The notes under the pieces: generated by a model
Seen by the model: the letters and a program-made list of their open reading frames with translations, nothing else
Database searches by the model: none
What the model was told of the DNA's origin: nothing
IMG/VR virus record: IMGVR_UViG_3300044294_000583
Coordinates: 1-21,232 of that record
Length of the DNA: 21,232 bases
Reading direction: 5' to 3' (one strand)
Origin: a virus
Program-made: the position numbers and the translations under genes
Shown here: positions 531 to 15,691 of the stretch, one piece after another
How positions within the stretch are numbered: the first letter of the stretch is position 1
Layout: each line of letters opens with the position of its first letter

Positions 531-618
531 TGCGCAGCACCTCTAAGTCGGCACCGCACTTGGGTAGTCGCGCGGCGCTCCGCTAGTTGCACCGAAGCGA
601 TTTCGATTCGACGCGTCC

Positions 619-650
619 AAAAGGCCCGCCACGCCGAAGCGCAGCGGGCC
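619..650 (-). terminator. Rho-independent terminator of the lysis operon
   Basis: Read on the minus strand, this is a hairpin with outer stem GGCCCGC/GCGGGCC, a TG/TG internal mismatch, inner stem CGC/GCG and a TTCG tetraloop, followed directly by TTTT. It begins 53 bases after the DUF1353 stop codon. Stem strength, the stable UUCG-type loop and the T tract together make this a convincing intrinsic terminator. It marks the end of the leftward transcript. Confidence 0.85.
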
Positions 651-702
651 AATTCTGACGACTTAGGCCGCTAGGGCCGGTCATCTCGCCGAAGGTGGCG
701 AG

Positions 703-1158
703 TTAGGTGCCGAAAGCCCGCGAGCCTCCGACGCGCACGGCGGCATAGATGACCGCCCGCTTCCAGGCCGGGACGCCTAGCACTTCCATTGCTTCCTTGA
801 ACAAGTCGTCGACCTGCTTTCGCGTCATTCGGCCACCCCAGCCCCGGGTCACATAGCCCGCGTCGTGAATGACGGCGGCCTTAGCCCAGGGGCCGTTCGG
901 CGGCATAAGGCCGCGAGCGATGGCGGGGATTGAGGCCAGATCGGTCACGCCGTCCGCCCGAATGTCCCGCAGCTCTTCGTCGGTGTAGCTCTCGCGGTCG
1001 AAGGCCGGGACGATGATGAAGTCGCCAGAGCCGATGTACCCTAGCTCATAGACTAGGGGCGTTGGCAGGTACCAGAGGCAGACCCCGCCACGGAGGACCG
1101 GCCGGCCATTGCTGTATTCCAGCATGACCAAGCCGAGGTTGCTCGTGAACCGGCTCAC
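703..1158 (-). CDS. DUF1353 family phage protein
   Basis: The 151-residue protein matches the DUF1353 family, which is common in tailed-phage genomes. Visible family features are the MSRF start, TDLASIP (72-78), the PNGPWAKAAVIHDAGY block (87-102) and a C-terminal WKRAVIYAAVRVGG segment. Biochemical function is unknown. The start is GTG at 1158, placed by the conserved MSRF beginning; the only other early in-frame start, ATG at residue 12, has no ribosome site. It follows the lipoprotein gene after 4 bases and is the last gene before the terminator, so it is co-transcribed with the lysis genes. A role in lysis or in modifying the host surface is only suggested by position. Confidence 0.85.
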   Translation of the reverse strand: MSRFTSNLGLVMLEYSNGRPVLRGGVCLWYLPTPLVYELGYIGSGDFIIVPAFDRESYTDEELRDIRADGVTDLASIPAIARGLMPPNGPWAKAAVIHDAGYVTRGWGGRMTRKQVDDLFKEAMEVLGVPAWKRAVIYAAVRVGGSRAFGT

Positions 1159-1162
1159 GTCG

Positions 1163-1420
1163 TCACGTCCCCCCCGGTGGGCTCTGGGGCGCGGCGGCCG
1201 GCGCTTCCTTGGCCGGACACCGGATCTGACCGTTGACGGTCGCGCCCGAGCCGGGGTTCAGAGCCCCCACGCTTGCCGAGTAGCTGACCAGGCGCTCGCA
1301 GTGCGAGTACGCCTCGCCGAACGCCTTTATGAACGCCGCCGGGTCGCTGTTGCCCGTGGCGCAGCCGCCAAGGCCCAGGCACGCGACCGCAGCCGCGCCC
1401 ATGAGAAGGGCTCGCTTCAT
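1163..1420 (-). CDS. Small phage lipoprotein, possible Rz1-like outer spanin
   Basis: This is an 85-residue exported lipoprotein. A positively charged start (MKR), a hydrophobic segment and a lipobox LGGC with Cys20 as the predicted lipidated residue are visible. The mature part has two more cysteines (41 and 68) and a Pro/Ala-rich C-terminus. The ATG at 1420 is chosen because a GGAG ribosome site lies just upstream and the signal peptide starts there; a longer frame exists but overlaps the preceding gene. Its place after the endolysin suggests an outer-membrane spanin subunit. However, no partner with an N-terminal membrane anchor is seen next to it, so that role is inferred from position and lipobox only. 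Confidence 0.75.
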   Translation of the reverse strand: MKRALLMGAAAVACLGLGGCATGNSDPAAFIKAFGEAYSHCERLVSYSASVGALNPGSGATVNGQIRCPAKEAPAAAPQSPPGGT

Positions 1421-1464
1421 GGTGATCTCCTTACGGGAGCTGCCGGCGTCCGGCCGGCGCGGTC

Positions 1465-1725
1465 TTAAATGACGCCCAGCGCGTTTGCGCGGTCGATCAT
1501 GGAAGTGAACTGGGCGGGCGGCTCGAAGATGAACCAACCGTCGCCAAGGGGATGCGGATCCCGCAGCGTGAGGCGCTCGTCTGCTAGACGTTCGATATCC
1601 CGCTCGAGCGCACGAAACTTGTCTCCGTGACGACGGGCCAGCGCGGCGTGGATCCTCGCCAAGGTGTCCAGCGCGTCATAGATGAGCTCCGACTCAACAG
1701 TCAGGGTCAGGGGGGCGGCGGCCAA
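1465..1725 (-). CDS. Hypothetical protein, 86 aa, in the lysis cassette
   Basis: I do not recognise this protein. The frame starts with TTG at 1725, five bases after the endolysin stop, with AAGG nine bases before it; there is no ATG until near the C-terminus. Residues 10-55 look like an amphipathic, charged helix pair (ALDTLARIHAALARR, ERDIERLADERL). The C-terminal third contains WFIFEPPAQF. It has no membrane segment, so it is not an obvious inner spanin. The tight spacing on both sides supports translation as part of the lysis operon. Confidence 0.6.
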   Translation of the reverse strand: MAAAPLTLTVESELIYDALDTLARIHAALARRHGDKFRALERDIERLADERLTLRDPHPLGDGWFIFEPPAQFTSMIDRANALGVI

Positions 1726-1729
1726 GGGT

Positions 1730-2269
1730 CTAAGCCTTGCCCAGGAACACTGCCCGTTCGGCCTCGCGGCGGTTCACTAGGCCCTGCAGGACCTTGCCGC
1801 CGGCGTACTTCCAGGATCCGAAAGCCTCGGCCGCGCCGACCAAGTCTCCGGCCAGGTACTTGCGCCGCACGGTGCTGTCGGCGAAGTCCGGCGCTCCGCC
1901 GATTTCGCCAACGCCGATGTTGTAGGCGAGCGAGACCATCGCACCGAGCTGGGCGTCGGTCGGTGTCCGGCCGGGAAGCAGGCGCATGATCCGATCGCAG
2001 ACCTGCTGGGCCACCTGGGTCAGCAGCAGATCCGCCTCGATCCGCGTCATGCCGCCTGGCCAGCGCGCCCGCCAGATCCGATAGGCGGTCTCGCGGTCGC
2101 GGACCGGCTTGCCCTTGTCGAAAAGGGCATAGCCCCAGCCGACAGTGTAGATGCCGATCGGGTCGGCCTCGGGCTCTAGGATGTTCGGCGTCTTCTTGTC
2201 GCCGTCGTGCAGACCCTCAAAGCGCTTGATAAGCGCCAGGGCGCACGCGGGCACGGCTCGCGCGGTCAT
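1730..2269 (-). CDS. Endolysin, GH24 lysozyme-like muramidase
   Basis: This enzyme would cut the glycan strands of peptidoglycan at the end of infection. The 179-residue protein shows the GH24 catalytic pattern: Glu18 in IKRFEGL, then Asp36 and Thr42 in DPIGIYTVGWGY. A later conserved block reads AYNIGVGEIGG, followed by FADSTVRRKYLAGD. The stretch between Glu18 and Asp36 is about nine residues longer than in T4/P22-type lysozymes, an insertion rich in Asp, Lys and Pro. No signal peptide or SAR anchor is obvious, so a holin would be needed for release. AAGGA seven bases before the ATG supports the start. It follows the metallophosphoesterase gene after 22 bases. Confidence 0.9.
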   Translation of the reverse strand: MTARAVPACALALIKRFEGLHDGDKKTPNILEPEADPIGIYTVGWGYALFDKGKPVRDRETAYRIWRARWPGGMTRIEADLLLTQVAQQVCDRIMRLLPGRTPTDAQLGAMVSLAYNIGVGEIGGAPDFADSTVRRKYLAGDLVGAAEAFGSWKYAGGKVLQGLVNRREAERAVFLGKA

Positions 2270-2291
2270 TTCGTATTCCTTTTGGAAGAAG

Positions 2292-3920
2292 TCAGGCGGC
2301 CCGGTAACGGCCGTCGCGCACCGTCAGCAGGGTGCGCTTCGCGTTCGGATAGGTCGCGATCAGGGTATGCGACCAGCTGCTGGGCGCGTCAGCGTTGTAG
2401 CCCTGGTCCATCAGCCCTGAGAGGCCGGCGGTGTAGACGCCGTCGAGGATGCCGGCGACGTGCGTATGAGCGGTGTTGAGGCGGCTGGAGACCCGGAGCA
2501 GCGCCTGTGGCGTGCCTCGCGCTCCGTTGGGCCCCTTGTCGCCATGGTAGATGTTCTCGATGCCGCCCTGGTCCTGACAGATCAGGAAGCTGGCGTCGCG
2601 CGGCGGAAAGGCGATGTCCTCGAGGCTGGACGCGTCGTGTCGCGCCAGGGCCCAGCGGACGACGTCGAAGGCATGGTCGCCGGCCTGGATCGCTCGATAG
2701 GTCGCTGCATTCGCCTCGAACCAAAGCAAAGCGTTGACCTCGTCCTGGCGCGGGTCGGCCTCTCGGAGCCAACGCGGCAAGGCGTCGTTGTGGTTCGACG
2801 GGATCACAACGGTCTGACAAAAGTCGCGGGCGCTGGCTCGTAGGAACTTGGCGCCGCGTTCCAAGGCCTTCTCGATCGAGGCTTCGCCAGCGACATGCAT
2901 CTGGAACCGGAAGACGTGGTCGCCCTTCCGGTGATGGTTACGCGCCATGAAGTCGATCAGGTCGTGCATGAACTGGAAGCGCGGTCGCAGTTGGTCGACC
3001 AGGCCGTCGTCGACCTTCTCCATCTTCTCGGCGTCTAGCCCCCAGATTACGCGGGCGATGACCGGGTCAATCTTCTCGATGTGAATGTCGCCAGGCGTGA
3101 TCGCCTCGATCCGGTGCCCGCGAGAGACGACCCCTGCCCTGACCCGCACGTCCAGATCCTGGAAGGATCCGTCGTCGGTCGCGCTGATCTGGCGACAGAA
3201 CACCACCCCGTCGGGGGCGATCTCGACCAGCGTCGCGCCGAAGATGTGATGGAAGGCCGCCTTCAGGCCGGCTTTCTTCTCGACGTAGTTCGGAACGGTG
3301 CAGGCCCCTGTCGTCATCAACATCGCCGGGTGGCGCGTGAAATGCGTCGGCACGCTGACCAGTTGGACCTTAGCGTGGGGGAACACGCCCCAACGCCCCT
3401 GCGTATAGGTGTCGAGGCCCGACAGGGGCCGGACCGCCGTGGGCAGGGTGTTCATCTCGGCGCAGAACACGATGTCGTCGGAAAGCGCGACCTGCTCGTG
3501 GCGCAGGTAAGGCTGCACGACCTCGGCAAACACCGCCGACCGCGCCGCGTGATCTTCGAACAGCCCCTTCTGATAGGTGAAGCCGCCGACCATGAGCTCT
3601 GCGCCAAGGTCGCGGGAATAGGTGAGCAGGTTCTCCCAAAAGGGCATGAACACAGGAGTATTGTCCTGTGCGGCTGTCAGCAGGAACCGGCGGACCCTGC
3701 CCGCTTTCGCGGCCAAGATGGGCGCTCCGAGCGCGCGCTCGACGATCCGTGTCTCGTCGGCCTCTTTCTTCCTGACGGCAGCGACAGCCGCGCTGATCAA
3801 GCTCTTGGCCACGCCCAGGTTCTGGGCCGCCTTCGCGACGGTGCCGTACTTTTCCCAGGCGTCCATGAGCTCTAGCTGGCGCGGCGTTGCGTGGCGGCGC
3901 AGCTCCGGGCCGAACCGCAT
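2292..3920 (-). CDS. HTH-metallophosphoesterase protein, phage A1-like family
   Basis: This 542-residue protein appears to be a metal-dependent phosphoesterase or nuclease with an N-terminal DNA-binding region. Residues 11-52 form a helix-turn-helix (AAQNLGVAKSLISAA). Calcineurin-like metal motifs follow in order: GDIH (277-280), HDxxD followed by NHH (319-330), SNHND (375-379), HGDKG (459-463) and AHTH (484-487). Blocks such as TTGACTVPNY and GDKGPNGARGTP recall a large uncharacterised phage family, and I think also the T5 pre-early protein A1; this is from memory and was not searched. ATG at 3920 overlaps the TGA of the preceding gene (TGATG); a TTG one codon earlier is less likely. It lies between the holin candidates and the endolysin, which is an odd place for such an enzyme. 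Confidence 0.75.
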   Translation of the reverse strand: MRFGPELRRHATPRQLELMDAWEKYGTVAKAAQNLGVAKSLISAAVAAVRKKEADETRIVERALGAPILAAKAGRVRRFLLTAAQDNTPVFMPFWENLLTYSRDLGAELMVGGFTYQKGLFEDHAARSAVFAEVVQPYLRHEQVALSDDIVFCAEMNTLPTAVRPLSGLDTYTQGRWGVFPHAKVQLVSVPTHFTRHPAMLMTTGACTVPNYVEKKAGLKAAFHHIFGATLVEIAPDGVVFCRQISATDDGSFQDLDVRVRAGVVSRGHRIEAITPGDIHIEKIDPVIARVIWGLDAEKMEKVDDGLVDQLRPRFQFMHDLIDFMARNHHRKGDHVFRFQMHVAGEASIEKALERGAKFLRASARDFCQTVVIPSNHNDALPRWLREADPRQDEVNALLWFEANAATYRAIQAGDHAFDVVRWALARHDASSLEDIAFPPRDASFLICQDQGGIENIYHGDKGPNGARGTPQALLRVSSRLNTAHTHVAGILDGVYTAGLSGLMDQGYNADAPSSWSHTLIATYPNAKRTLLTVRDGRYRAA

Positions 3921-4207
3921 CAATCACGCCCCTGCGGCGCGCGCTGTCCCCAGAGGTTGGCCAACATCACGACCGCCGAAACCCCGATCGCCGTCGCCAG
4001 CATCGCCTCGCGCGCCGTGGCGCCGCCGTGGCCCAGGACATGGATCGCCTCGCCAGCCATGATGACCGAGAAGCCCATGACGACGATCGAGACGGGCCGG
4101 CTGGAGACCCAGCCGCGCGCCTCGGGTTTGAGCATGTTGCCGCGCAGGGCCAGCGCCAGGCCGCCGATGGTCGAAACCCCGGCCGTGTAGAGGTCCAGGG
4201 CGTCCAT
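3920..4207 (-). CDS. Small membrane protein, holin candidate
   Basis: The 95-residue protein has three hydrophobic stretches: about residues 5-22 (LYTAGVSTIGGLALAL), 38-58 (PVSIVVMGFSVIMAGEAIHVL) and 66-86 (REAMLATAIGVSAVVMLANLW). It ends in a short charged tail (GQRAPQGRD), as many holins do. The start ATG directly follows the TAG of the upstream membrane protein (TAGATG), and the stop overlaps the next start, so translation is coupled on both sides. Size, topology and nearness to an endolysin suggest a holin or antiholin. No specific holin family was recognised. Confidence 0.65.
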   Translation of the reverse strand: MDALDLYTAGVSTIGGLALALRGNMLKPEARGWVSSRPVSIVVMGFSVIMAGEAIHVLGHGGATAREAMLATAIGVSAVVMLANLWGQRAPQGRD

Positions 4208-4561
4208 CTACTTGCTCCCCTCGTCGAGCTCTTCGACGCGGCGCGCGGCCTTGTTCCGGAGCACGCGGAAGATCAGGGGCAGCAGCTCCCAGCCAAAGGC
4301 CCCGACGCCAAAGCCAAACGCCGAAGCGTCGCGCAACGGGGCGAATGGGATCAGGGGCGCGACCACCTGGACCAGGAACATCGCCAGGATGACGCCGGCG
4401 GCTGTGGCGCAGGCAATATTGATCGCGAGGTTGCGATACTCGTCCTGCGTCACGGGATGCCCGCTCAGCGCCAGGGCGCCGAACGAGACGAGGCCATAGA
4501 TAGCCGCGCCACCAAGCGCGCCGATGCCCGCCCGCAGGCGGTCGGGGTCGATGTCCAACAT
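4208..4561 (-). CDS. Small membrane protein, second holin candidate
   Basis: The 117-residue protein has hydrophobic segments at about 12-33 (GIGALGGAAIYGLVSFGALAL), 46-73 (NIACATAAGVILAMFLVQVVAPLIPF) and a weaker one at 80-98 (AFGFGVGAFGWELLPLIF). The C-terminal tail is charged (RVLRNKAARRVEELDEGSK). A strong GGAGG site four to five bases before the ATG makes it the likely first gene of the lysis group. It is directly followed by another three-segment membrane protein, so the pair may act as holin and antiholin. This is inferred from topology and position; other phage membrane functions are possible. Confidence 0.65.
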   Translation of the reverse strand: MLDIDPDRLRAGIGALGGAAIYGLVSFGALALSGHPVTQDEYRNLAINIACATAAGVILAMFLVQVVAPLIPFAPLRDASAFGFGVGAFGWELLPLIFRVLRNKAARRVEELDEGSK

Positions 4562-4674
4562 TGGACCTCCAGGTTGTCAGGAGCTAGCCTTGCCGGGGCG
4601 GTCAGGGCGTGAGAGCGGTGCCGGCTTGGTGATCCGGCTCTTCTTTCGCGAGGGCGGCTGCGGCCCTCGGGCCG

Positions 4675-5499
4675 TCAGCACTGGTCTTGTTGGTGGATGG
4701 CGTTGAACCGGTCCATGACGGTCCGGCCCGCGTTGATGCTGTGGGCATAGGTCTCAAGGAAGATCGTTGAAGACTTCCAACCCCCGGCGTCCATCGCCAC
4801 CCGCACCGAAACCCCAGCGTTGAGGGCGTTGGTCGCGAAGGCGTGTCGGCCGACCGTATGCGACGACTTGTAGGGCAGGCCCGCCCGCCGGCAGACGGCC
4901 GCGATTCTCTCATTGACGGAAAAACGGCTGGTGTAGCGGAAGACCCGAACCCCCGGCCGGGGATCCAGCTCGCGGATCCGCTCGACCAGGTGATCGGGCA
5001 GATAGCGCAGGCTCATCACGTCGGTCTTGGTCTTGACCAGCATGGCCGTGCGCTGGCGCAGATCGACGTCCTGGCCCTGCAGGGCGATCGCCTCCGAGAC
5101 CCGGGCGCCGGTCAGATTCATCATCAAGACCAGGGCCGCCAGGTGCTTGAGGCCGTCGACGTCGCACTGGTCGATGAACCGCTCAAGCCAGCGCCGCGTC
5201 GCCGGCGTCGTCTTGCGCTGCTTCGGCGCTGGGAAGAGTCGAATGCGAGCCGGAAGGCGCCAGCCCAGCTCATGGGCGTGATAGAGCACAGCGCGGGTTG
5301 GCGTGATGATCTGGCGGTTGCGGGTCGAAGGCGCCGCGTTCGGCATCATCTCGACCGCCGCGCTGCGCACCGCCAGCGGCGTGATCGCGGTGACGAGCTC
5401 GGGACCGAACCTCGCGATCAGGGGTGGAAGGTAGCGTTGCTCGCCGCCGTGCTGGATGTAGCTCTCGGCCGCCGCTGCGAAAGTGCGTTCCTGTTCCAT
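4675..5499 (-). CDS. int: Tyrosine recombinase (phage integrase)
   Basis: This enzyme would join phage and host DNA at att sites during lysogeny. The 274-residue protein has an N-terminal core-binding part (about 1-90) and a C-terminal catalytic domain. The active-site set is visible: Arg133 in TGARVSEA, Lys158 in KTKTD, His214 and Arg218 in SHTVGRHAFAT (the variant with three residues between His and Arg), Trp241 in GGWKS and the nucleophile Tyr251 in ETYAHS. The length is short for an integrase, because the N-terminal arm-binding domain seems small or missing. The start ATG at 5499 has TAAGGT just upstream. It is divergent from a ribbon-helix-helix gene across 72 bases that contain repeated motifs, so it is probably controlled there. 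It is oriented like the late genes around it. Confidence 0.93.
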   Translation of the reverse strand: MEQERTFAAAAESYIQHGGEQRYLPPLIARFGPELVTAITPLAVRSAAVEMMPNAAPSTRNRQIITPTRAVLYHAHELGWRLPARIRLFPAPKQRKTTPATRRWLERFIDQCDVDGLKHLAALVLMMNLTGARVSEAIALQGQDVDLRQRTAMLVKTKTDVMSLRYLPDHLVERIRELDPRPGVRVFRYTSRFSVNERIAAVCRRAGLPYKSSHTVGRHAFATNALNAGVSVRVAMDAGGWKSSTIFLETYAHSINAGRTVMDRFNAIHQQDQC

Positions 5500-5500
5500 G

Positions 5501-5534
5501 ACCTTAACCGGATATAAACCGTAAGGTTTAACCG
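5501..5534. promoter_or_regulatory. Candidate operator between integrase and RHH gene
   Basis: The 72 bases between the divergent starts contain three copies of WAACCG on the plus strand, at 5505-5510 (TAACCG), 5516-5521 (AAACCG) and 5529-5534 (TAACCG), with starts 11 and 13 bases apart, close to one helix turn. The same stretch has an inverted repeat ACCTTA (5501-5506) / TAAGGT (5522-5527) and an AT-rich core TATAAA that could be a -10 element on either strand. Tandem short repeats are the usual target of ribbon-helix-helix repressors. Binding by the neighbouring protein is inferred. Confidence 0.45.
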
Positions 5535-5571
5535 TCGCGGCTCTCGGCGACAGATGACAGGAGATACACTT

Positions 5572-5751
5572 ATGGGGCGACCCAAACTCAACGTGAAGCA
5601 GGTAGGCGTTCAGCTAACGCCGGAGATCCTGGACCGCATCGACGCCCTGGTCGGCGGCCACCACCGGTCCAAGTTCATCCGTCAGGCGATCGAGAACGAG
5701 CTGGCCAGGGCCGAGGCCGAGAAGGCCGCCGACACTGGCCAGACAGGGTAA
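5572..5751 (+). CDS. Ribbon-helix-helix (CopG/Arc-like) regulator 1
   Basis: The 59-residue protein looks like a dimeric ribbon-helix-helix DNA-binding protein. The N-terminus GRPKL is followed by a candidate DNA-contacting strand at about residues 8-15 (VKQVGVQL), helix A at 16-28 (TPEILDRIDALVG) and helix B at 32-48 (RSKFIRQAIENELARAE). The ATG at 5572 is preferred over one 18 bases upstream because AGGAGA lies just ahead of it. It is divergent from the integrase and probably represses integrase and/or itself through the repeats between them. A second, related protein is encoded at 6337-6525. It could be a lysogeny regulator or an excision-control factor; the sequence does not decide. Confidence 0.85.
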   Translation: MGRPKLNVKQVGVQLTPEILDRIDALVGGHHRSKFIRQAIENELARAEAEKAADTGQTG

Positions 5752-5753
5752 CT

Positions 5754-5775
5754 GTGGGGGTGGCTGGACCCCCAC
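5754..5775 (+). terminator. Terminator-like hairpin after RHH gene 1
   Basis: A perfect 8-base stem GTGGGGGT/ACCCCCAC with a 6-base loop starts three bases after the stop codon of the regulator gene. No T tract follows on either strand (AAATGG on the plus strand), so it is not a standard intrinsic terminator. It may act as a transcript-stabilising or weak stop structure. Confidence 0.4.
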
Positions 5776-5795
5776 AAATGGTCGGGGAGCGTATT

Positions 5796-5805
5796 GGGCC
5801 GTTTA
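5796..5805 (-). repeat. TAAACGGCCC motif, copy 1
   Basis: The motif reads TAAACGGCCC on the minus strand. It lies 45 bases after the stop of RHH gene 1, just past the hairpin. The same ten bases recur at 6250, 6523 and, far away, at 18817. Confidence 0.5.
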
Positions 5806-6249
5806 GGCGAGGTCTGAGAGGTTGCCGGGGGATTTCACCCCGGCGCGGCCAAAGCCTCTGACGCCGTCACACCCGGCGCCTAGTGGACAGCGCACCGCCG
5901 CGCCGCAGGCCTACTAGGGGAAGTCCGGTCGCCCACATCCACGGAGCTTCCATCAACCCTCCCCGTTCGCACGGGATCTAGATCCGCCGGACGAACCGGC
6001 GGTCGAGCACTCTGCGGCGTTGGCGACCATGCCCGTACCCGCAGCGCCCTCCGAGATTTTCGGGGCCGGAACCCCTTTCACGCGGCCTCCGAGGTGATCA
6101 ACCTCTTCACCGGCTTGAGCGCCGAAGCGCCGTAGGTCGCCGAAAACTCATGTGGCCGTTCGGCCGAAACTGGCCTCGGACCGACTTCGACGGTCAGCAC
6201 GGCTCGGGAACAGCCCTGTCGGGCGACCGTGGCGAGGAAGCCAAACAGA

Positions 6250-6260
6250 TAAACGGCCCC
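6250..6260 (+). repeat. TAAACGGCCCC motif, copy 2
   Basis: An 11-base match to copy 3, in a longer similar context (CAGATAAACGGCCCC here, CAGAGTAAACGGCCCC there). It ends three bases before a candidate -35 box for RHH gene 2, which is a typical place for an operator. Confidence 0.5.
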
Positions 6261-6263
6261 ATT

Positions 6264-6292
6264 TTGATCGTCAATACTCGGCGCCGTCTATT
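6264..6292 (+). promoter_or_regulatory. Candidate promoter of RHH gene 2
   Basis: A -35-like TTGATC (6264-6269) and a -10-like TCTATT (6287-6292) are separated by exactly 17 bases, each matching the sigma-70 consensus at four of six positions. The predicted transcript would begin near 6299 and give a leader of about 38 bases before the GTG start at 6337. The call rests only on these boxes. Confidence 0.35.
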
Positions 6293-6336
6293 TACGCCTT
6301 GCCGCTATGGTGAAGCCCTCGACCAGGGAGGGCGAC

Positions 6337-6525
6337 GTGGGCAGGCCACGCCTCGACTATATCCGAACGCACATCAGCCTTGACGCCAAGGCCCTGGCCC
6401 GCCTTGACGCCATCGTCGGCGAGAAGGGCCGGGCCGCCTTCATCCGCAAAGCCACCAATCAGATGCTCGACGCGGTCGAAGAGGCCCAGCGTATCGCCGC
6501 CAAGGGCAAGGCTAAGGCAGAGTAA
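6337..6525 (+). CDS. Ribbon-helix-helix (CopG/Arc-like) regulator 2
   Basis: The 62-residue protein is laid out like the regulator at 5572-5751. Both begin GRP(K/R)L, both have LD.I(A/V)G-like helix A residues (ARLDAIVGEKG) and both have FIR.A in helix B (AAFIRKATNQML); about 17 of the first 48 positions agree. The start is placed at GTG 6337 because it aligns with the MGRPKL start of the relative and has GGGAGGG four bases upstream; an ATG at 6307 would add ten residues not found in the relative. The C-terminal tail is Lys/Ala-rich. TAAACGGCCC motifs flank the gene, one before its candidate promoter and one over its stop codon. It is probably a DNA-binding regulator; its target is inferred. 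Confidence 0.8.
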   Translation: MGRPRLDYIRTHISLDAKALARLDAIVGEKGRAAFIRKATNQMLDAVEEAQRIAAKGKAKAE

Positions 6526-6533
6526 ACGGCCCC
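6523..6533 (+). repeat. TAAACGGCCCC motif, copy 3
   Basis: This direct repeat of copy 2 begins with the TAA stop codon of RHH gene 2. It is in the short gap where that gene and the leftward tail operon converge. Copies 2 and 3 therefore bracket the gene at a distance of 273 bases. Confidence 0.5.
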
Positions 6534-6569
6534 GAAAACGCCCCCACAATCGAAGTGAAGGCGTTGGGG

Positions 6570-8108
6570 CTAGCTATTGGCCCAAGACCAGATCGCGTTA
6601 GCCAAACGCGCCGACAGCATATCGTAGAACGGCGGGATTGGATGGCTATCCGTGAACACAGACGCAATCTTCCAATAAAAGCGGTCCTTGTTTCCGTTGG
6701 ATTGAGGCGAGTTGCCCGTTCCCGTGCCAGATGTCCACGCACCCGCAGGGTCGGTAAGAACCGGGACAAAGACCGTGTTAACGTCTCCGAACGTTGTAAC
6801 AGCCGCAGACATATCGGCCTCTAGTGTAAGCTGGTTAGCCCCGGTGGCGCTTTCCGATTGGAGCAAATGGCCTCCCGTGACGAAGAACGCGCAACGGGGA
6901 AGCGCAGCGCGCGCGGCCTGAAGATATGACACTACCGCCGCTTGGCGCTGCGCTGAGCTGTAGGTGCCAACCGCGTCATTATGGTTTCCGCCAAGCACCA
7001 GGATGTCAGGATTGAACGACGAAATTCGATCTAGCCGTTCTGCAAGCGTCGTCTTGGTACCCGACGAATTAGCCAAAAAGCCCGTTCCGCCGATTGCGTT
7101 ATTATAAAAATGGTCACACCCAATCCGGCGAGCCGTAAGAACATCGACCCCCAAACCTGGATTAATCGGTGACGAGTAAGAACCCTGCGTAATGCTGTCG
7201 CCATCAAACGCCAAGCCGAAGCGCATTGGGTTTTTTGGTGCTCGAACACTGTCGCGCGGGCCGACATAAACAAGATACGTCAGAGTGCTTCTTATGTTTT
7301 GATACCCATAAATCCTGACACTCTTTTCACCGTTGAAGGTCGACAGGTCGATCAACAGGCACGAATTTGAGGCGAGCGACGGCACTCGAAATGCTGCTGG
7401 TGACAGCAACCGGCCATTAACTTCGATCAAAAACGGTGTGCCCGCGTACATCGGCCCCGCGCCTTGGAAAGCAATCCATCGCGCATCTGTGACCATGTCC
7501 ACGACCGGTCGGCGAAGTGAGTCTGGGTAAGAAGGAGAAGCCGCCGTGGCGTTGTTAGGCCCCTGAATAAGCGGATGCCCACCCTCAATTGCAAAGGGAC
7601 CGCCCGTCATCCAGAACAAACGATCATTCGCGGTCTGCGTGGCCGTCACATCGATGACGCGCGTGAGGCCGATCGTGCTCATGGCGCTTGCGGCGACAAT
7701 GGCAAGATAGCCGTCCATCACATCCGACGAGGCCGCTGGAGTGACGGTCGATACCAACGGACGTGAACCGACCGACCGCGCTACGCCATAGTAAAGCCAG
7801 CGGCAGGTGTTGTCGGAAATCAACCCAACGTCTTGACCACTCGAAAACGGATTGGCGTTGAATGGCGTCGAGGCTCCAGACGTGCCAGCTACGCCCGCCC
7901 CCGAGGAAGAGTTGCCAAACATCAAATACAGATAGCCGTTGGCCTTGACGATGCTTCCGGCGAAATAGCTGGTGCTCGCTTGCCAATCTGGCGCAGGCCC
8001 CCACGGGTCGCTGTCAACGCTATTCAAAGCGCGGGCGGTTGCAGCGGCGGCTTTGACCTTTTCCTTAACCTGCGCAACCGAAGACGAAAAAGCACGCGTG
8101 GTCGGCAT
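6570..8108 (-). CDS. Tail spike/fibre protein with C-terminal SGNH hydrolase domain
   Basis: This is probably a virion tail protein that removes ester-linked (for example acetyl) groups from the host surface polysaccharide. The 512-residue protein has an N-terminal part (1-290) with small-residue-rich, beta-like sequence, likely for attachment. The SGNH domain (about 295-510) has Ser305 in FDGDSITQG, Gly340/341 in AIGGTGF, Asn375 in GGNHND, and Asp487 and His489 in FTDSHP; the last block has one residue fewer than the usual DxxH. It starts at ATG 8108 overlapping the stop of the previous small gene (TAATG). Base composition is clearly AT-richer than its neighbours (29 of 60 G+C in 7021-7080), a sign of recent acquisition, as is common for receptor-binding genes. 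Confidence 0.85.
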   Translation of the reverse strand: MPTTRAFSSSVAQVKEKVKAAAATARALNSVDSDPWGPAPDWQASTSYFAGSIVKANGYLYLMFGNSSSGAGVAGTSGASTPFNANPFSSGQDVGLISDNTCRWLYYGVARSVGSRPLVSTVTPAASSDVMDGYLAIVAASAMSTIGLTRVIDVTATQTANDRLFWMTGGPFAIEGGHPLIQGPNNATAASPSYPDSLRRPVVDMVTDARWIAFQGAGPMYAGTPFLIEVNGRLLSPAAFRVPSLASNSCLLIDLSTFNGEKSVRIYGYQNIRSTLTYLVYVGPRDSVRAPKNPMRFGLAFDGDSITQGSYSSPINPGLGVDVLTARRIGCDHFYNNAIGGTGFLANSSGTKTTLAERLDRISSFNPDILVLGGNHNDAVGTYSSAQRQAAVVSYLQAARAALPRCAFFVTGGHLLQSESATGANQLTLEADMSAAVTTFGDVNTVFVPVLTDPAGAWTSGTGTGNSPQSNGNKDRFYWKIASVFTDSHPIPPFYDMLSARLANAIWSWANS

Positions 8109-8257
8109 TAGATAGCCTCCAGAAGATAGGCGCCATCCGTATCCATCAGGTACGCGCCGTCAGTGTCGGTGAGAAAGACAAAGCCATAAGGCGGAACCAG
8201 CCCACCCTTGTTGAGGGCGGGGGCGCCCAGGCCGAAGCCGAAGCCGAAGCCCGACAT
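8108..8257 (-). CDS. 49-residue tail-module peptide with GF and TDGAYL repeats
   Basis: This short gene fills the gap between two tail genes exactly. Its ATG overlaps the previous TGA (TGATG) and its TAA overlaps the next ATG (TAATG). The peptide starts MSGFGFGFGLG and ends with a tandem duplication, TDTDGAYLM followed by DTDGAYLLE. An in-frame CTGGAGG near its end serves as a ribosome site for the next gene. Similar glycine/phenylalanine-rich micro-proteins occur before tail fibre genes in other phages, as far as I recall, with no known function. Translational coupling on both sides strongly supports that it is expressed. Confidence 0.75.
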   Translation of the reverse strand: MSGFGFGFGLGAPALNKGGLVPPYGFVFLTDTDGAYLMDTDGAYLLEAI

Positions 8258-8577
8258 CACGCGAACTTTACGGCGATCTCTTCGCCCGCGCCTTCCACAG
8301 CGTAGTTGTAGGTTCCCGCGATCGGCAGGAAGCGGCCCGCATTCGCGCCGGCGGTCGGGTTGGCGCCCATGGCGATGAAGGCCGCCGCGTCGACCGCGAC
8401 TTCCCAGAACAGGCCTTCCCAGCCCGTGTCAGGCGCCTTGACGGTCGACTCGGTCGAGCCCGTCGCCGACGTGATCGTCTGCGGCGTCGTGACCGGGATC
8501 GAGTCTGTCACCTGGGCGGTGGCGCCGGTGTCGGCGCGGCCAGAGACGCGCACCAGCGCAACGTGAATGTTGGGCAC
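8257..8577 (-). CDS. Hypothetical tail-module protein, 106 aa
   Basis: I do not recognise a named family. The start is GTG at 8577, with AAGGAG seven bases upstream. The protein is rich in Ala, Thr and Val and looks beta-stranded throughout, with a C-terminal FIAMGANPTAGANAGRFLP segment followed by GEEIAVKFA. Small proteins of this type occur between fibre genes in phages and could be virion decorations or fibre-associated. It is tightly coupled to the 49-residue gene downstream. Confidence 0.7.
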   Translation of the reverse strand: MPNIHVALVRVSGRADTGATAQVTDSIPVTTPQTITSATGSTESTVKAPDTGWEGLFWEVAVDAAAFIAMGANPTAGANAGRFLPIAGTYNYAVEGAGEEIAVKFA

Positions 8578-8621
8578 GTTTGGGCTCCTTGAAAGGACGA
8601 TGTCGGGAAAGGTCGAGATCC

Positions 8622-8638
8622 GGCGAATTGAATTCGCC
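8622..8638. repeat. 17-base palindrome between tail genes
   Basis: GGCGAATTGAATTCGCC is a perfect inverted repeat with 8-base arms around one central base. It lies in the 68-base gap between the DUF4376 gene and the next gene, one of the larger gaps in the tail module. There is no T tract after it on either strand. It could be a protein-binding site or an RNA hairpin (7-base stem, 3-base loop). Confidence 0.45.
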
Positions 8639-8645
8639 AGCAGGG

Positions 8646-9101
8646 TCAGCCGGGCCAGCCGGCCGTCAGGTCGATCGCGTCCAGCGCGTCATGGTCGGCG
8701 GCGGCCAGGATGGCGTCGCTCAGGGCTTGCTCGTTGTCGAAACAGGCCTGGACGTGCGCGCGAATGGCGATGCCGTAGGCGGCCACGTCCTCGACCGACC
8801 AGGTGCGGAATTCGCCGTTCTTGAGCTTCCAGGTGATGTCGCCGGCGACCGGCGCCACCGTGTCGGCCACCACCACGCCCAGCACCGCCGTCAGGGCGCT
8901 GTCGGCGGGCACGCCGTCGACGCCGTCATAGGTGAACGTCTGGGTGGCCCGCCAGCGGATCCTAGCCAGCGTCGCCAGGCGTTCGGCCTTGGCGTCAGCC
9001 AGTGGGCCGCGGAAGGCGGCGATCTCTTCGGCGGTGAGGGTGCGCGTGACGGGCTCCAAGGCCTCGCCGTCCTCGCCGCGCCCAATACGAACTTCGATCA
9101 T
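8646..9101 (-). CDS. DUF4376-like phage tail protein
   Basis: The 151-residue protein resembles DUF4376 proteins, often found with tail fibres or fibre-assembly genes. Visible features are an Ala/Arg-rich helical segment at 32-50 (GPLADAKAERLATLARIR), then QTFTYDGVDGVPAD, a central ITWKLKNGEFRTWSVEDVAAYG (88-109), and a C-terminal helical part ending in DALDAIDLTAGWPG. It starts at ATG 9101, six bases after the fibre gene stop. Whether it is a virion part or an assembly helper cannot be told from sequence. Confidence 0.7.
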   Translation of the reverse strand: MIEVRIGRGEDGEALEPVTRTLTAEEIAAFRGPLADAKAERLATLARIRWRATQTFTYDGVDGVPADSALTAVLGVVVADTVAPVAGDITWKLKNGEFRTWSVEDVAAYGIAIRAHVQACFDNEQALSDAILAAADHDALDAIDLTAGWPG

Positions 9102-9107
9102 GGCCGC

Positions 9108-10118
9108 TTACCTCTTGAACATTTTGATCGAGCCGGCATTGGTCAAGGCGACGCCCGAGAACGAGAACTGGAAGGCCGCCATGCCGCCCGTGTGCTTCCA
9201 GACGGCGGTGTAGGGGTCAGTCTTTGAGAAGCCGTTTGGAGAGCTGATCGCGCCCGTGCTGAGCGCCGGCACGCCAAGGGACATGTCGCCGCGATACCCG
9301 TGCACAACGAGCACGCCGGTGTAGTGCGAGAAGTTGCTGATCAGCGACACCGCCCCCCCAAAGCTGGAGCCGTTGACGCTCGCCGCCGCCGCCATCGCGG
9401 CTGCGGAGGATGGAACGATGCCGTCAATCTCAAACTTCAGGTCATTAAAGCCGCTGGGCGTCGTGAAGGTGATCAGCGTCGGCGAGCCGGTGACGGTGTA
9501 GGTCGTGTCCAGCGTCCAGTTGGCGGTCGGGCCTTGAATCCCCTGGTCGCCCTTACTGCCGCGCGGATCCAGAACCAGCACCAGGCTGTCGCCATCGGCG
9601 AACGGATTGGTGGTCGACACCGTCACGTTGGTCAGGGTCAGATTGACATAGCCCGTGCCGCCGCCACTGGGCGTGTTGGCGGTCACGTCAGCCAACAGGC
9701 GCTTGGACGGGTCGCCGAACTTGTACATCAAGATCGAGCCCAGCGGCGCGCTGGTGCTGGTCATCCGCGCCAGGGTGGCGGTGGCCGAAGCGCCCAGATT
9801 ATCGAGCGCGTCGGCGATCAGGGCCGTCGCAGAGCCCTGCGTAAGGTTGTTCAGCCCCACCTTGCCCGCGCCGCGATCGGCTACGGCTGCCGATGTGCCG
9901 TCGAACGTATAGGTGACCACGATCGCGCCCGGCGGAAACGCCGCCGCCTGATCCGCCGCCAACGTTGCCATCCACGCGCCGAGCCCGACCAAGTCTTGCG
10001 CCCACAATGGCGCAGTGGCGCCCCAGGTCGACGCGGCGGCGACATAGGCGTCAGCGTCAGCAGCATTGCGGTTTGGAAAGTCACCAAGATCGCGCACTTC
10101 AGGCGGCGTGAGATTCAT
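9108..10118 (-). CDS. Tail fibre-like protein with collagen-type motif
   Basis: The 336-residue protein is a likely tail fibre or receptor-binding subunit. The N-terminal 60 residues (PPEVRDLGDFPNRNAADADAY and the Ala-rich helix after it) resemble attachment ends of phage fibres. Residues about 187-198 (GSKGDQGIQGPT) form a short collagen-like Gly-X-Y run, common in trimeric phage fibres. The C-terminal part (200-336) is beta-rich with many Ser, Thr and Gly, and would form the head of the fibre. ATG at 10118 overlaps the preceding stop by four bases (ATGA). No enzyme domain was seen. Confidence 0.75.
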   Translation of the reverse strand: MNLTPPEVRDLGDFPNRNAADADAYVAAASTWGATAPLWAQDLVGLGAWMATLAADQAAAFPPGAIVVTYTFDGTSAAVADRGAGKVGLNNLTQGSATALIADALDNLGASATATLARMTSTSAPLGSILMYKFGDPSKRLLADVTANTPSGGGTGYVNLTLTNVTVSTTNPFADGDSLVLVLDPRGSKGDQGIQGPTANWTLDTTYTVTGSPTLITFTTPSGFNDLKFEIDGIVPSSAAAMAAAASVNGSSFGGAVSLISNFSHYTGVLVVHGYRGDMSLGVPALSTGAISSPNGFSKTDPYTAVWKHTGGMAAFQFSFSGVALTNAGSIKMFKR

Positions 10119-11014
10119 TGCGAAAGCCCTTCAACTTCGAGGCTGCAGGTGGTGAAGGTCGGCCCCTGGATCTCCTGGCTGAAGTCCTTGACGTAGCCAT
10201 AGACGAGGGTTGCGCCGTACTGGGTCGAGCCCTGGAACACGATCGGCCGGGCGCGGTAGTCGGACAGCTGGGTGTTGACCTGGTCGAACATTCCCGGCGC
10301 CACATTGACGACGAAGGTCGCGCGCTTGGAGAACGCCCGCTCGACCACGATCTCGTTGCCGAAATCGTCGCGGTCTTTGCGGCTGTAGTCCTGAATGCCG
10401 ACATTGGCGCCGTACTGGGTGCCGCCTACCGGCTGGCTCAGGCTGGGGATGATCTCACCGACCTTGGCCGTCGCCCCCGGCGAAAACACCCGCACCGTAA
10501 TGGTCAGGCCCGCATACAGCGGCGAGATGCCGCTGACGTGCACATCGCGCCGCCGGCGGATGGGCTCGATCAGATAGGCGTAAATGTCGATGACGCCATA
10601 ATTGACCACCAGGCTGACGGTCTGGTCGAACACCACCCCGTCGGTGGCGTCTTCGGCGATCACCTGCACGCTCACGCCGTCCAGGTTCAGCAGCGACACG
10701 CCGTCGATCCGGCCCGCCACGGTGAACTTGTATTCGACGCTTTCGGCGCGCTGGGCCTGGGCGCCGATCTTGCCATCTAACGCCTTCCAGCGATTGGATG
10801 GCCCCAGCGCCAGCCATTTGCTGGCGTCGGTGACGGGGTTGCCGTAGTTGCCGCTGGCGAGGCTCTTGTACTCGACAGCGCCCGTCGCTTGGTCGACGCG
10901 AGCGATCGCATTCAGCGCATAGGTGGTCATGGCGCTGTACAGCGCGTTCGGCTCGGCGACCGTCGAGCTGACCAGATCGGCCAGGGCGATGGTCGTGGGG
11001 CGCATCAGGCGCAT
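10115..11014 (-). CDS. Phage tail protein, unnamed family (tail tip candidate)
   Basis: The 299-residue protein directly follows the tape measure gene, where distal-tail or baseplate genes usually lie. I recognise the general type from other phages (SKWLALGPSNRWKALDGKIG near 65-85; GIQDYSRKDRDDFGNEIVVERAFSKRATFVVNV near 207-240; C-terminal SLEVEGL) but not a named family. It looks beta-rich, with a middle part similar to a carbohydrate-binding or jelly-roll fold. Its start overlaps the tape measure stop (TGATG). A role in the tail tip is inferred from gene order. An alternative ATG three codons in is possible. Confidence 0.65.
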   Translation of the reverse strand: MRLMRPTTIALADLVSSTVAEPNALYSAMTTYALNAIARVDQATGAVEYKSLASGNYGNPVTDASKWLALGPSNRWKALDGKIGAQAQRAESVEYKFTVAGRIDGVSLLNLDGVSVQVIAEDATDGVVFDQTVSLVVNYGVIDIYAYLIEPIRRRRDVHVSGISPLYAGLTITVRVFSPGATAKVGEIIPSLSQPVGGTQYGANVGIQDYSRKDRDDFGNEIVVERAFSKRATFVVNVAPGMFDQVNTQLSDYRARPIVFQGSTQYGATLVYGYVKDFSQEIQGPTFTTCSLEVEGLSQ

Positions 11015-14000
11015 CAGTAGTCCCGATTTTGGGGCATGCCGTCACCGTCCCAGCGGCTCATCTGACGCGCGGTTTTGCCGGTATTGATCGTGGTCTGGAC
11101 CATCGCCGACTCCAACCGGGCGACGTCGTTGCGCAGGCCGCGCAGTTCGGCCGCCAGGCTGTTGTCGTTCGCGCCCATGCCGCGCGGAATGACCGAGATC
11201 ATCTCGCCACGCCCCACTCGCGCCACGCCGACGTTGTTCAGCGACAACAGGTTTTGATCGACGCCAGGATTGCCGCCGACGGTGAAGGAGCCGCCGCTGG
11301 CGAAGCCCGGCAGTCCCGACATTGAGTCTCCCCGTATCGAAGCGAACAGCTGGGCCAAGCGCTCGGGATAGGCAGCAAGATCATTGGCCTTGTTCAGCGC
11401 TAGACTGCGCACCCACGCGACATCGTTCTGGTAGCCCGCTGAAGTGGACTGCGTTGCCTTGGAAGCGTCCAGGAAAGCCTGGGCCAGGCCCTGATCGAAG
11501 GTGCCGCTGGCGGCGCCCTTTTCCAGGAGCGACCGCATGGCCGCATAGCTCTGCTGCTGCCCGCCGAAACCCAGCTCGCTCAGCAGACTGTCGGCGAACG
11601 ACCGGATCGACTTCTCTGCGTCAGCGGCGTTCTTCATCGCATCGACGAAGCTGTCGCCCAGCGTGCGAATGGCGTCGGCCTGGCGTTGAGCGGCCTGGGC
11701 CACTAGATCGGCGGTGTCGGCCTGGACCTTATTCCACAGCTCCAGCGACTTGGTCGCCGCAGTCTGATCTTCGGCAGCAGCTTGAGCAGCCTCAGCCGAC
11801 GCCGTCGCCGCGTCTTCCAGACCAAACAGCCGATCGATCATCGCCGCCAGCGCCGGATCCATCGCCGCCAGCTCCGCCCGCTCGCGGGCGCGCGCCTTGG
11901 CCAGCAGTTCGGCGGCGGTCATCGTCAGGGCGTCGATCCGGTCCTGGATCGTCTGGGCCTTGGCTTGGATCGTCGCGGCGCGTTCGGCCGCCGCAGCGGC
12001 GGCCTCGTCGGCGGCGGCCTTGGCGTTGCCGGCGTCGATCGCGTCGTACAGCGCCTGCTTTTGCGCGACGAGGCTGGCGTCCAACTTGGCCAGCGCGTCC
12101 AGCTCGGCTTTGCGCTCCAGATTGAGCGCTTCCTGCTCCTTGCCCTGGGCACGCAATAGGTCGATTTCCAGCACCAGACGCGTGTCGGCGATCTGCTGCT
12201 GGCGTTGGGCTTCCTTGGCCGCCGCCTCTGCCGCCGCCTGGGCCTTTGCCTGCTTCTTGGCCTTGGAGGAGCCGAACAGACCACCCAAGCCGCCAAGGAT
12301 GCCGCCGATAGCAGCACCCACCGGTCCGCCCATCTGGAACCCAGCCAAGGCGCCCGACGCTGCGCCGCCAAGAGCCGCGCCGCCAGACCCGCCGACTAGG
12401 TTTCCGACCCCCTGGGCGATACCCGCCACCGCGACGAATTTGTCGGCTGACGTCGCGCCGGCAGCGAAAGCCTTCTCGACCTTGGCCAACACATTCGCGA
12501 GGGCGGCGAACGCCGAGGTCCAGTCGTTCTCATTGATGGCCCGCGCGACGTCGTCGATATCATAGGCTAGGTCGCGGGCCTTCCAGGCTGCTTCACCCAG
12601 ATCGTCGGCAGCGCGCTCCAGCGCCGTCGAGAAATGAAAGATGCCGCCCGTAGCTTCCTTGAACGTGCGGATGCTATCCTGCTGCTGGTCATTGACGAGC
12701 TTCTGGATCTCGGCGGCCTCAGCGCCGACCTCAACCTGCGCCTCATAACGATCGGCAAGATGGTTGATGTGATCAGCCAAGGCCTGAGTGGGCGCCGCTG
12801 CTGCCTGGAGACGCATCTCTCTGACTTTCAGCTGCTGGGAGGACATCCCCATCGTGGAGATCTCTTCCAGCAACGAGGCTGCGTAATCGGCAGAGCGCTG
12901 CTCGGTTTGGCGCATCGCGTCAGACAGCACCTTCATAGCAGCAGCGTGTTCTCGCTCGGCCGCTGCAGCGGCGCGGGTCGCTGCGTCGAGCTTTCGCTTG
13001 GCCTCCGAGGCCTTGTCTTGCTCTTCGAGGAGGTTTCGCAGTTCGCCAGTGAGAGGGCTTTCCGGTGCCTTCTTTTTTGACGCAGACCCTGAGCCCAGCC
13101 AGTCAGAAAGACTCGAGGCCTCGACGGTGCGGCCTCGCAGCGCCGCTCGGTCCATTATCTTCCCAAGATTGCCGAAACCGATCGACAGTGGGTTGGCGCC
13201 AATCGCCTTGCTACGAGCGTCGCGCGCCCAGGCAGGTGCCGAGTCAAAGCTGGCTTTCAGGCCGCCTGCGACGTCATCGAGTCGTTCTGCAAGCTCTCCG
13301 GCCGCCTTCGCGCCGTCGACCATCATCTCCGTCAGCGACATCACGAGCGGGATCGCGTTGGTCATCGCTGTGCGATACTGTACGCCTAGAATGGCGGTCA
13401 GCGCTTCATATTGGTCGTTTGCCGTCCCGGCCTTCTCGATCAGGTCCGATTCCATGACGTATCCGAGGCGCTGAGCCTCGGCGCGCATCTCGTCGATGGC
13501 GGCCGTGCCTTCGCGAATGGCGGGCAGCATCGGCGTCAAGCCCAGCTTGTCTGCCACCGCCGCCTGTTCGGCGGCCGAACCAAGCGCAGCGATCTTGTCG
13601 ATCGTCGCGTTCAGCGCCTCTTCGACGCTGCCGAACGACTTGGGATCAAGGCCCAGCGCCTCGAAGGGCTTCATCGCCTTGCTGGACAGTCCCGAGGTCG
13701 CCTGGCCAAAGGCTTTCGTGAAGCTCTCCAGCGCATCGTCGGCGTCTGAGAAATCACCGCCCAGACCATGCGCCGCAAAGCGCATCTCCTGCAGATAGTC
13801 GGTCGTCACCTGCAACTTGGCCGCCGTGTCGCCGATCTCGTCGCCGAACGCCATCGCTTGGCGTGCGCCCTGGAAGGCAGCGCCAAGAGCGGCGGCCGCT
13901 GCGACGCCCGTGATGCCCAGTCCGCTCAGGATGCTGCCGGCTGCGCCGGCTGATCCCGCCATACCCGACAGGGCATTCTCAACTTCGCCAAAGGCGGCCT

Positions 14001-14130
14001 TCAGACCGTCGCCGACACGCAGCTTTCCAAACTCGCCCAACTTCTTCTGAGCGGACGCAAGGCCGCTGTCGAAGCCGGCCGTGTTCAACCCCAGCCATGC
14101 GTAAAGATTGCCAACGGCTTCAGCGGCCAT
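11014..14130 (-). CDS. Tail tape measure protein
   Basis: This protein sets tail length during assembly and is ejected ahead of the DNA. The 1038-residue chain is long, Ala-rich and helical. Hydrophobic stretches occur at about 57-88 (GMAGSAGAAGSILSGLGITG and on) and 566-617 (Gly/Ala-rich, ending GGILGGLGGLFGSS). A long charged coiled-coil region follows at about 620-830. The C-terminal FASGGSFTVGGNPGVDQ...ARVGRGEMISVIPRG block is typical of phage tape measures. At about 0.15 nm per residue the tail would be near 155 nm, indicating a siphovirus. GGAGG six bases before ATG 14130 supports the start. It follows the chaperone pair, as expected. Confidence 0.95.
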   Translation of the reverse strand: MAAEAVGNLYAWLGLNTAGFDSGLASAQKKLGEFGKLRVGDGLKAAFGEVENALSGMAGSAGAAGSILSGLGITGVAAAAALGAAFQGARQAMAFGDEIGDTAAKLQVTTDYLQEMRFAAHGLGGDFSDADDALESFTKAFGQATSGLSSKAMKPFEALGLDPKSFGSVEEALNATIDKIAALGSAAEQAAVADKLGLTPMLPAIREGTAAIDEMRAEAQRLGYVMESDLIEKAGTANDQYEALTAILGVQYRTAMTNAIPLVMSLTEMMVDGAKAAGELAERLDDVAGGLKASFDSAPAWARDARSKAIGANPLSIGFGNLGKIMDRAALRGRTVEASSLSDWLGSGSASKKKAPESPLTGELRNLLEEQDKASEAKRKLDAATRAAAAAEREHAAAMKVLSDAMRQTEQRSADYAASLLEEISTMGMSSQQLKVREMRLQAAAAPTQALADHINHLADRYEAQVEVGAEAAEIQKLVNDQQQDSIRTFKEATGGIFHFSTALERAADDLGEAAWKARDLAYDIDDVARAINENDWTSAFAALANVLAKVEKAFAAGATSADKFVAVAGIAQGVGNLVGGSGGAALGGAASGALAGFQMGGPVGAAIGGILGGLGGLFGSSKAKKQAKAQAAAEAAAKEAQRQQQIADTRLVLEIDLLRAQGKEQEALNLERKAELDALAKLDASLVAQKQALYDAIDAGNAKAAADEAAAAAAERAATIQAKAQTIQDRIDALTMTAAELLAKARARERAELAAMDPALAAMIDRLFGLEDAATASAEAAQAAAEDQTAATKSLELWNKVQADTADLVAQAAQRQADAIRTLGDSFVDAMKNAADAEKSIRSFADSLLSELGFGGQQQSYAAMRSLLEKGAASGTFDQGLAQAFLDASKATQSTSAGYQNDVAWVRSLALNKANDLAAYPERLAQLFASIRGDSMSGLPGFASGGSFTVGGNPGVDQNLLSLNNVGVARVGRGEMISVIPRGMGANDNSLAAELRGLRNDVARLESAMVQTTINTGKTARQMSRWDGDGMPQNRDY

Positions 14131-14173
14131 GACGGACCTCCGCGTGAGGGTTCAATCTGGTGAGACGAGAGGG

Positions 14174-14479
14174 TTAGCCGCCAGGGTGGGCAGCTAGGGC
14201 GTCCAGGGTGGCGCACCACAGATCCATGGATGCCTCGAGCGACAGGTCAGGCTTGTTCGGCTTGCCTGTCATGTAGTCAGCGAGACTGGGGAAGCTCTTC
14301 CCGCCGTGCGGGGCCAGCATGTGCCAGCCCAGGAAGCGACGTCCTTCGATCTCTCGACGGACGCGCGCCCAGCCGCCTTCAAGCGCCAGGGCGAGGGTTC
14401 TGGGGGTCTGTCGCCAGTAGGCGTCAGGATCCCCCAGGCCAAGTTCGCACCACTCGACTAGGAGGGCTTCCCAGTCCCA
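14174..14479 (-). CDS. Tail assembly chaperone, second part, probably made by -1 frameshift
   Basis: This frame codes for about 101 residues beginning WDWEALLVEWCELGLGD, followed by AYWRQTPRTLALALEGGWA. That is the pattern of the Phage_TAC_6 / GTA gp10.1-type tail assembly chaperone (W..L....LGL.P..FW..TP.EL...LEG). It has no ATG, GTG or TTG until an ATG about 50 residues in. The frame is open back to a TAA at 14540-14542 and overlaps the end of the first chaperone in the -1 frame. The lambda G/GT pair is the known model: a small share of ribosomes shift to make a fused protein. No classic slippery heptamer was found; GGC codons preceded by G within 14458-14539 are possible slip sites. Confidence 0.7.
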   Translation of the reverse strand, partial: WDWEALLVEWCELGLGDPDAYWRQTPRTLALALEGGWARVRREIEGRRFLGWHMLAPHGGKSFPSLADYMTGKPNKPDLSLEASMDLWCATLDALAAHPGG

Positions 14480-14847: not shown

Positions 14848-14849
14848 GA

Positions 14850-15275: not shown

Positions 15276-15288
15276 GGTGATCTCTCCT

Positions 15289-15687: not shown

Positions 15688-15691
15688 GAGA

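Follow-up and report, generated by a model that had tools for sequence, protein, structure and literature searches.

An A1-family helix-turn-helix metallophosphoesterase among phage lysis genes and the lysis-linked lineage to which it belongs

Nucleases with which phages destroy host DNA are generally regarded as tools of early takeover. The locus described here, in which a relative of the phage T5 protein A1 is encoded between holin candidates and an endolysin, raises the question of what such a protein does in a lysis cassette. The window, meaning the whole stretch of DNA that was analysed, is the 21,232-base virus record IMGVR_UViG_3300044294_000583, which is probably a fragment. The A1-family gene occupies positions 2292–3920 on the minus strand and encodes 542 aa, with the ATG at 3920 and the stop codon at 2292–2294. 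This ORF bears out the coordinates of an initial annotation, which had left the strand unstated. On the plus strand, the frame of the gene contains stops and no comparable gene is present within 2292–3920.

The A1-family protein and its metal site

Comparison with PHROGs matched the protein to a single family, phrog_1745 (DNA transfer protein), with an E-value of 6.6e-164 over residues 38–539. This is the family of T5 A1, and alignment identified the window protein as a full-length homolog with 36% identity to T5 A1 and with metal-binding motifs common to both. Relatives were found by tblastn in 1,124 phage records, none of them above 60% identity; the best among the matches listed were approximately 44–45% identical to the window protein, and no cultured phage record exceeded about 45%. 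T5 A1 had been described in the initial annotation as a distant relative. The kinship holds, but the homology is close and extends over the full length, and several A1-like phage proteins are 43–45% identical to the window protein. No NCBIfam model and no PADLOC defence model matched the protein, and the window as a whole gave no hits to Rfam or in a tRNA scan. A scan of viral contigs with the single sequence recovered no relatives; an alignment was required. The gene and the predicted elements of its product are as follows:

2292–3920, minus strand: A1-family helix-turn-helix metallophosphoesterase, 542 aa (phrog_1745, structure model and viral fold matches)
3771–3881, minus strand: N-terminal helix-turn-helix, residues 14–50 (Pfam HTH_1, LysR-type, E-value 0.0019, under the curated Pfam cut-off; fold matches to LysR DNA-binding domains)
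3081–3092, minus strand: metal motif I, GDIH, residues 277–280 (D278 in 70/70 relatives, H280 in 69/70; beta strand precedes)
2952–2966, minus strand: metal motif II, HDLID, residues 319–323 (D320 in 70/70, D323 in 63/70; beta strand precedes)
2931–2939, minus strand: NHH, residues 328–330 (H329 and H330 in 69/70)
2784–2798, minus strand: metal motif III, SNHND, residues 375–379 (N376 and H377 in 70/70; beta strand precedes)
2532–2546, minus strand: metal motif IV, HGDKG, residues 459–463 (H459 in 70/70)
2460–2471, minus strand: metal motif V, AHTH, residues 484–487 (H485 in 68/70, H487 in 70/70; beta strand precedes)

An AlphaFold2 model of the protein, built from a 70-sequence alignment, had a mean pLDDT of 93.9. 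The top matches of this model in a viral structure library were A1 homologs, followed by calcineurin-like phosphoesterases, MPP, SbcD and the Pol II small subunit with E-values of 1e-7 to 1e-3. A fold search of the PDB returned no metallophosphoesterase at E<=0.001, with YfcE, MPPED2, GAP50, PP5 and Pol delta p50 matching weakly; at the N-terminus it matched LysR DNA-binding domains (9iyz, 1.6 Å over 44 columns). Helix-turn-helix families were also matched by many of the 70 relatives in Pfam. No Pfam phosphoesterase model matched the window protein, and none ranked within the 25 families found most often in those relatives. A profile search of PDB sequences returned nothing beyond designed repeat proteins and a dehydroquinate dehydratase, the latter by chance through an SNHxxALxxWL stretch, and these matches were rejected. 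According to the model, the window protein is a calcineurin-type metallophosphoesterase fold behind a helix-turn-helix. This is the domain combination first proposed from the sequence, and the pLDDT, the viral fold matches and the LysR-type matches agree with it; the metallophosphoesterase fold is present in the structure prediction.

Every motif named beforehand (GDIH, HDxxD with NHH, SNHND, HGDKG and AHTH) is found in the protein, and the order GDxH, HDxxD, SNH, HG, [AG]HxH is that of the calcineurin-like metallophosphoesterase superfamily, with HDxxD in motif II of the window protein where the superfamily has GDxxD. Conservation of the core residues of the metal motifs extends to 68–70 of the 70 relatives, with H319 (64) and D323 (63) of motif II being lower. 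In the model, a beta strand lies directly before four of the five motifs, and motif IV is less clear. SbcD/Mre11 and the small-subunit metallophosphoesterases of DNA polymerases share the fold class of A1 by structure comparison but show no significant sequence match to it, and A1 has its own N-terminal helix-turn-helix and an extra domain.

These features bear on the possibility that A1 is a regulator, in which the helix-turn-helix and an interaction with RNA polymerase would bring about a transcription switch as the cycle ends and the phosphoesterase fold would be only partly used. Such a role would fit the helix-turn-helix found by Pfam, by PDB fold search and in relatives, as well as the published binding of T5 A1 to RNA polymerase (PMC8541194, PMC3556154) and the regulatory reading of the phiCbK protein; for A1s encoded in replication modules the authors prefer a role in RNA polymerase interaction or transcription (PMC3556154). 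However, the metal-motif residues are almost invariant at 36–69% identity and a pure regulator would not need them, whereas the N-terminal helix-turn-helix is variable and seemingly absent in some homologs that keep the metal site, such as that of RcSimone-Hastad. A regulatory function is considered unlikely.

The lysis cassette of the window

The genes surrounding A1, in the direction of the minus strand, are as follows:

4675–5499, minus strand: tyrosine integrase upstream of the lysis cassette (PF00589, E-value 4.6e-15)
4208–4561, minus strand: holin candidate, a membrane protein of 117 aa (phrog_2359 holin, E-value 2.3e-5; hydrophobicity)
3920–4207, minus strand: membrane protein of 95 aa, second holin or antiholin candidate (ORF and hydrophobicity; no convincing family match in Pfam or PHROGs)
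1730–2269, minus strand: endolysin, a phage lysozyme (PF00959 Phage_lysozyme, E-value 1.2e-23; phrog_7, E-value 4.4e-32)
1465–1725, minus strand: ORF of 86 aa between the endolysin and the lipoprotein (no match in Pfam or PHROGs)
about 1163–1424, minus strand: small lipoprotein with an LGGC lipobox, outer-spanin candidate (from the sequence; no family match)

The TGA of the 95-aa membrane protein overlaps the ATG of A1 by one base, the gap between A1 and the downstream endolysin on the same strand is 22 bases, and 113 bases separate the integrase from the cassette, again on the same strand. From this tight spacing, A1 is predicted to be co-transcribed with the holin candidates and the endolysin. 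Neither a sigma-70-like promoter nor a minus-strand terminator-like site was identified between positions 600 and 6600. The initial placement of the gene with lysis genes rather than replication genes is supported by the common strand, the upstream overlap and the short gap to the endolysin.

Several further genes lie nearby. A DUF1353 protein (703–1158, minus strand; PF07087, E-value 2.1e-19; phrog_1158) is encoded just 3' of the lysis genes, and a 512-aa SGNH/GDSL hydrolase (6570–8108, minus strand; PF13472, E-value 1.1e-9, no PHROG match) is found at the end of the tail genes. The integrase (minus strand) and a ribbon-helix-helix gene (5554–5751, plus strand) diverge across 54 bases (5500–5553) that contain the inverted repeat TAAACC-TTAC-GGTTTA, a candidate operator. 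Another small gene, similar to the ribbon-helix-helix gene, is located at 6307–6525.

A lysis-linked clade and other branches of the A1 family

A1 genes with flanks of up to 10 kb were taken from virus contigs and genomes, ORFs were called by a codon model, and neighbours were assigned by clustering, phmmer and PHROGs/Pfam. Two main arrangements were found, a replication-module clade and a lysis-linked clade that includes the window. In the latter, an endolysin gene lies no more than six genes away from A1. The rule of lysis linkage was formed on the first set, in which 21 rows of a 23-row clade (SH-aLRT 99) are lysis-linked. A second scan, using different patterns for new loci, provided 13 further A1 loci with 47–63% identity; L114 and L115 are apparently one sequence, and L125 closely resembles L128, which reduces the number of distinct loci to 11, among which L111/L120 and L128/L129 remain close relatives. 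In all 13, the strand of A1 also carries an endolysin homolog, located two to four genes upstream, with 11 of the 11 distinct loci fitting the rule, and the eight endolysins that were checked were all confirmed by PHROGs. In a joint tree of 59 sequences, 30 lysis-linked rows and 2 others form one clade (bootstrap 100, SH-aLRT 98). The Fisher and binomial figures for the linkage are tiny and were computed ignoring kinship among rows. The lysin queries came mostly from the lysis clade, and endolysins of other families near other A1s are possibly under-counted; the PolA and methyltransferase neighbours of those A1s argue that under-counting is not the whole reason for the contrast. The lysis position, initially regarded as unusual, is not so within the clade, where 30 of 32 members share it. 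Homologs thus occur routinely at this position, and no different role is known for them.

Many members of the clade have the order tail, holin, endolysin, spanin-like gene and A1, with A1 last and opposite-strand genes often next, and the endolysin follows A1 in the window and in L014, L017, L019, L051 and L064. The clade endolysins belong to at least seven families (phrog_7, 181, 315, 465, 894, 17001, 1259/9589 and GH108 types), and the link between A1 and lysis genes is therefore not one inherited block. There are two exceptions. In L081, the nearest relative of the window protein (67%), A1 adjoins an N4-type RNA polymerase (phrog_2051) and an HNH endonuclease without lysis genes, which suggests that A1 has been exchanged between unlike phages. 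In L073, A1 is flanked by portal/head-morphogenesis and head-protease genes. Conservation of the lysis position in the clade is strong, though not absolute. Within the L081 locus (5343–16330), A1 follows a 480-aa ORF. The idea that A1 has a membrane protein as its dedicated partner was rejected, as the small membrane proteins frequently encoded upstream come from several unrelated families and are more readily explained as holins or spanins.

The A1s of the sister clade adjoin PolA, an amino-methyltransferase (directly upstream in many), an SNF2-type helicase and a YfbR-like 5'-deoxynucleotidase. PolA, the methyltransferase and the deoxynucleotidase are the neighbours that a part for A1 in breaking down DNA would predict, and the A1s of the lysis clade are without them, so the use of the protein would differ there. 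Sphingobium phage Lacusarx, Erythrobacter phage XM05, the phiCbK group and Shewanella phage KASIA encode proteins of the same family, those of Lacusarx and XM05 being 44–45% identical to the window protein. In contrast to the window gene, which has none of these genes nearby, their A1s adjoin DNA polymerase and replication genes, several with a methyltransferase and 5'-deoxynucleotidase. An amino-methyltransferase (phrog_799 or NPPY-type) is found beside A1 in about two thirds of the replication-type clade, directly upstream in L003, L006, L008, L027, L063, L069 and others, with the YfbR-like deoxynucleotidase near. The pairing of methyltransferase and A1 resembles a modification-and-degradation pair, and a methylase neighbour of A1 was earlier described for Lacusarx (PMC5648845). 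A rule that lysis-type phages lack methyltransferases was rejected, with N6_N4-type or phrog_799-type enzymes present in several of their records.

A third branch consists of late-position A1s whose start is overlapped or abutted by a small membrane protein (L002, L005, L009, L070, L074, L080, L084, L096, L101 and L106); a phrog_6420-like membrane protein family recurs upstream of A1 in nine loci. In Rhodobacter phages RcCronus and RcSimone-Hastad, the A1-like gene is the last of the tail/late region, preceded by the gene of a small membrane protein, and has been described solely as shared and without known function (PMC8601537). RcCronus is listed as temperate, like the predicted lifestyle of the window phage, but the A1s of the two phages belong to a different branch of the tree and are 39–42% identical to the window protein. 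The A1 family, and A1-like genes following tail genes in phages of which one is listed as temperate, are thus already known. Among open-licence papers, a scope that does not prove absence, none on a lysis-linked A1 lineage was found.

Integrase matches occur in 12 of 15 lysis-linked records of the first set and in 10 of 12 of the second. Roughly half of the tested records of the replication type have an integrase match as well, in many cases to short frames, and the integrase was rejected as a mark of the lysis type for not being discriminating. It supports a predicted temperate life and does not define the type; the earlier assignment of the phage as temperate agrees with the integrase at 4675–5499 and with those of most lysis-linked relatives. 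A1 prophages are rare in bacterial genomes (4 of 385 of the class sampled, one being the centre genome itself). In the lysis-linked clade, the records that contain L128, L129 and L134 may derive from isolates. A1 might instead be a moron with a function in the lysogen or in defence against competing phages, with the lysis/integrase site being a permissive insertion site. The integrase directly upstream in the window, the two ribbon-helix-helix genes beyond it and the integrase that follows A1 in L013 would suit a moron. However, the position of the integrase relative to A1 varies among relatives, no promoter-like site (600–6600) or PADLOC match was identified, and the A1 of most relatives is on the late strand, closely behind lysis genes and often followed by opposite-strand genes. 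The moron explanation is regarded as quite unlikely.

A late role for A1 and its implications

In T5, both the degradation of host DNA and second-step DNA transfer require A1, which is essential to them and is synthesized after injection from the first-step DNA (PMC13250531). The Demerecviridae pre-early gene product (phrog_1745) is like the window protein in its full-length homology and near-invariant metal motifs, but is encoded alongside dmp and A2 in the terminal repeat, whereas the window A1 belongs to the lysis cassette of a phage with an integrase. The pre-early position is a T5-type feature, absent for the window A1 and without parallel in the wider family. The requirement of T5 A1 for second-step transfer, together with the A1 genes of Pan1, RcCronus and L073, which lie within or behind the structural genes, could indicate a virion-carried protein that is made late for packaging only and aids the next infection by DNA transfer or early attack on host DNA. 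Set against this are the synthesis of T5 A1 after injection and the location of the clade A1s among lysis genes more than structural genes, and a virion-carried protein is held to be very unlikely.

The reading of the window A1 as a late, metal-dependent nuclease that acts on DNA and is produced alongside the lysis proteins is preferred, its chances being judged about even. It starts from established features, namely the homology, the fold, the near-complete conservation of the motifs and the recurrent lysis linkage, from which we infer nuclease activity, late timing, choice of target and benefit. Enzyme activity is argued from the near-invariance of the two-metal site, action on DNA from the helix-turn-helix and action at the end of the cycle from the linkage to lysis genes. 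In the proposed sequence of events, A1 of the distinct lysis-cassette lineage, with its DNA-binding helix-turn-helix joined to a two-metal calcineurin-type phosphoesterase, would be made together with holin, endolysin and spanins and, as the lytic cycle ends, would degrade the host nucleoid or other DNA that has not been packaged. Progeny genomes would already be protected in capsids, and the benefit would be virion release and the removal of host DNA. Counting against the nuclease are the contexts of L081 and L073, the PDB search without a metallophosphoesterase at E<=0.001, the lack of a Pfam phosphoesterase match, and the integrase directly 5' of the window cassette on the same strand. As of 2021, nuclease activity had been reported for no A1 protein (PMC8541194), and the preference for transcription in earlier work (PMC3556154) likewise counts against it.

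A broader proposal is offered tentatively and with some doubt, that a terminal nuclease is a regular lysis-cassette component in a large, uncultured, mostly temperate lineage and destroys host or unpackaged DNA with holin triggering, as a relative of T5 A1 whose action has been transferred from the beginning of infection to the last stage. If true, some phages would destroy DNA on leaving the cell, and the A1 family would spare the phage's own genome in three ways: by acting before most of the genome has entered in T5, beside a methyltransferase in the replication type and after packaging in the lysis type. A single enzyme that exists in early, replication-linked and lysis-linked forms would provide a clean comparison for testing the role of A1, and the prediction for the lysis-linked form is open to test in any inducible prophage with such a gene.
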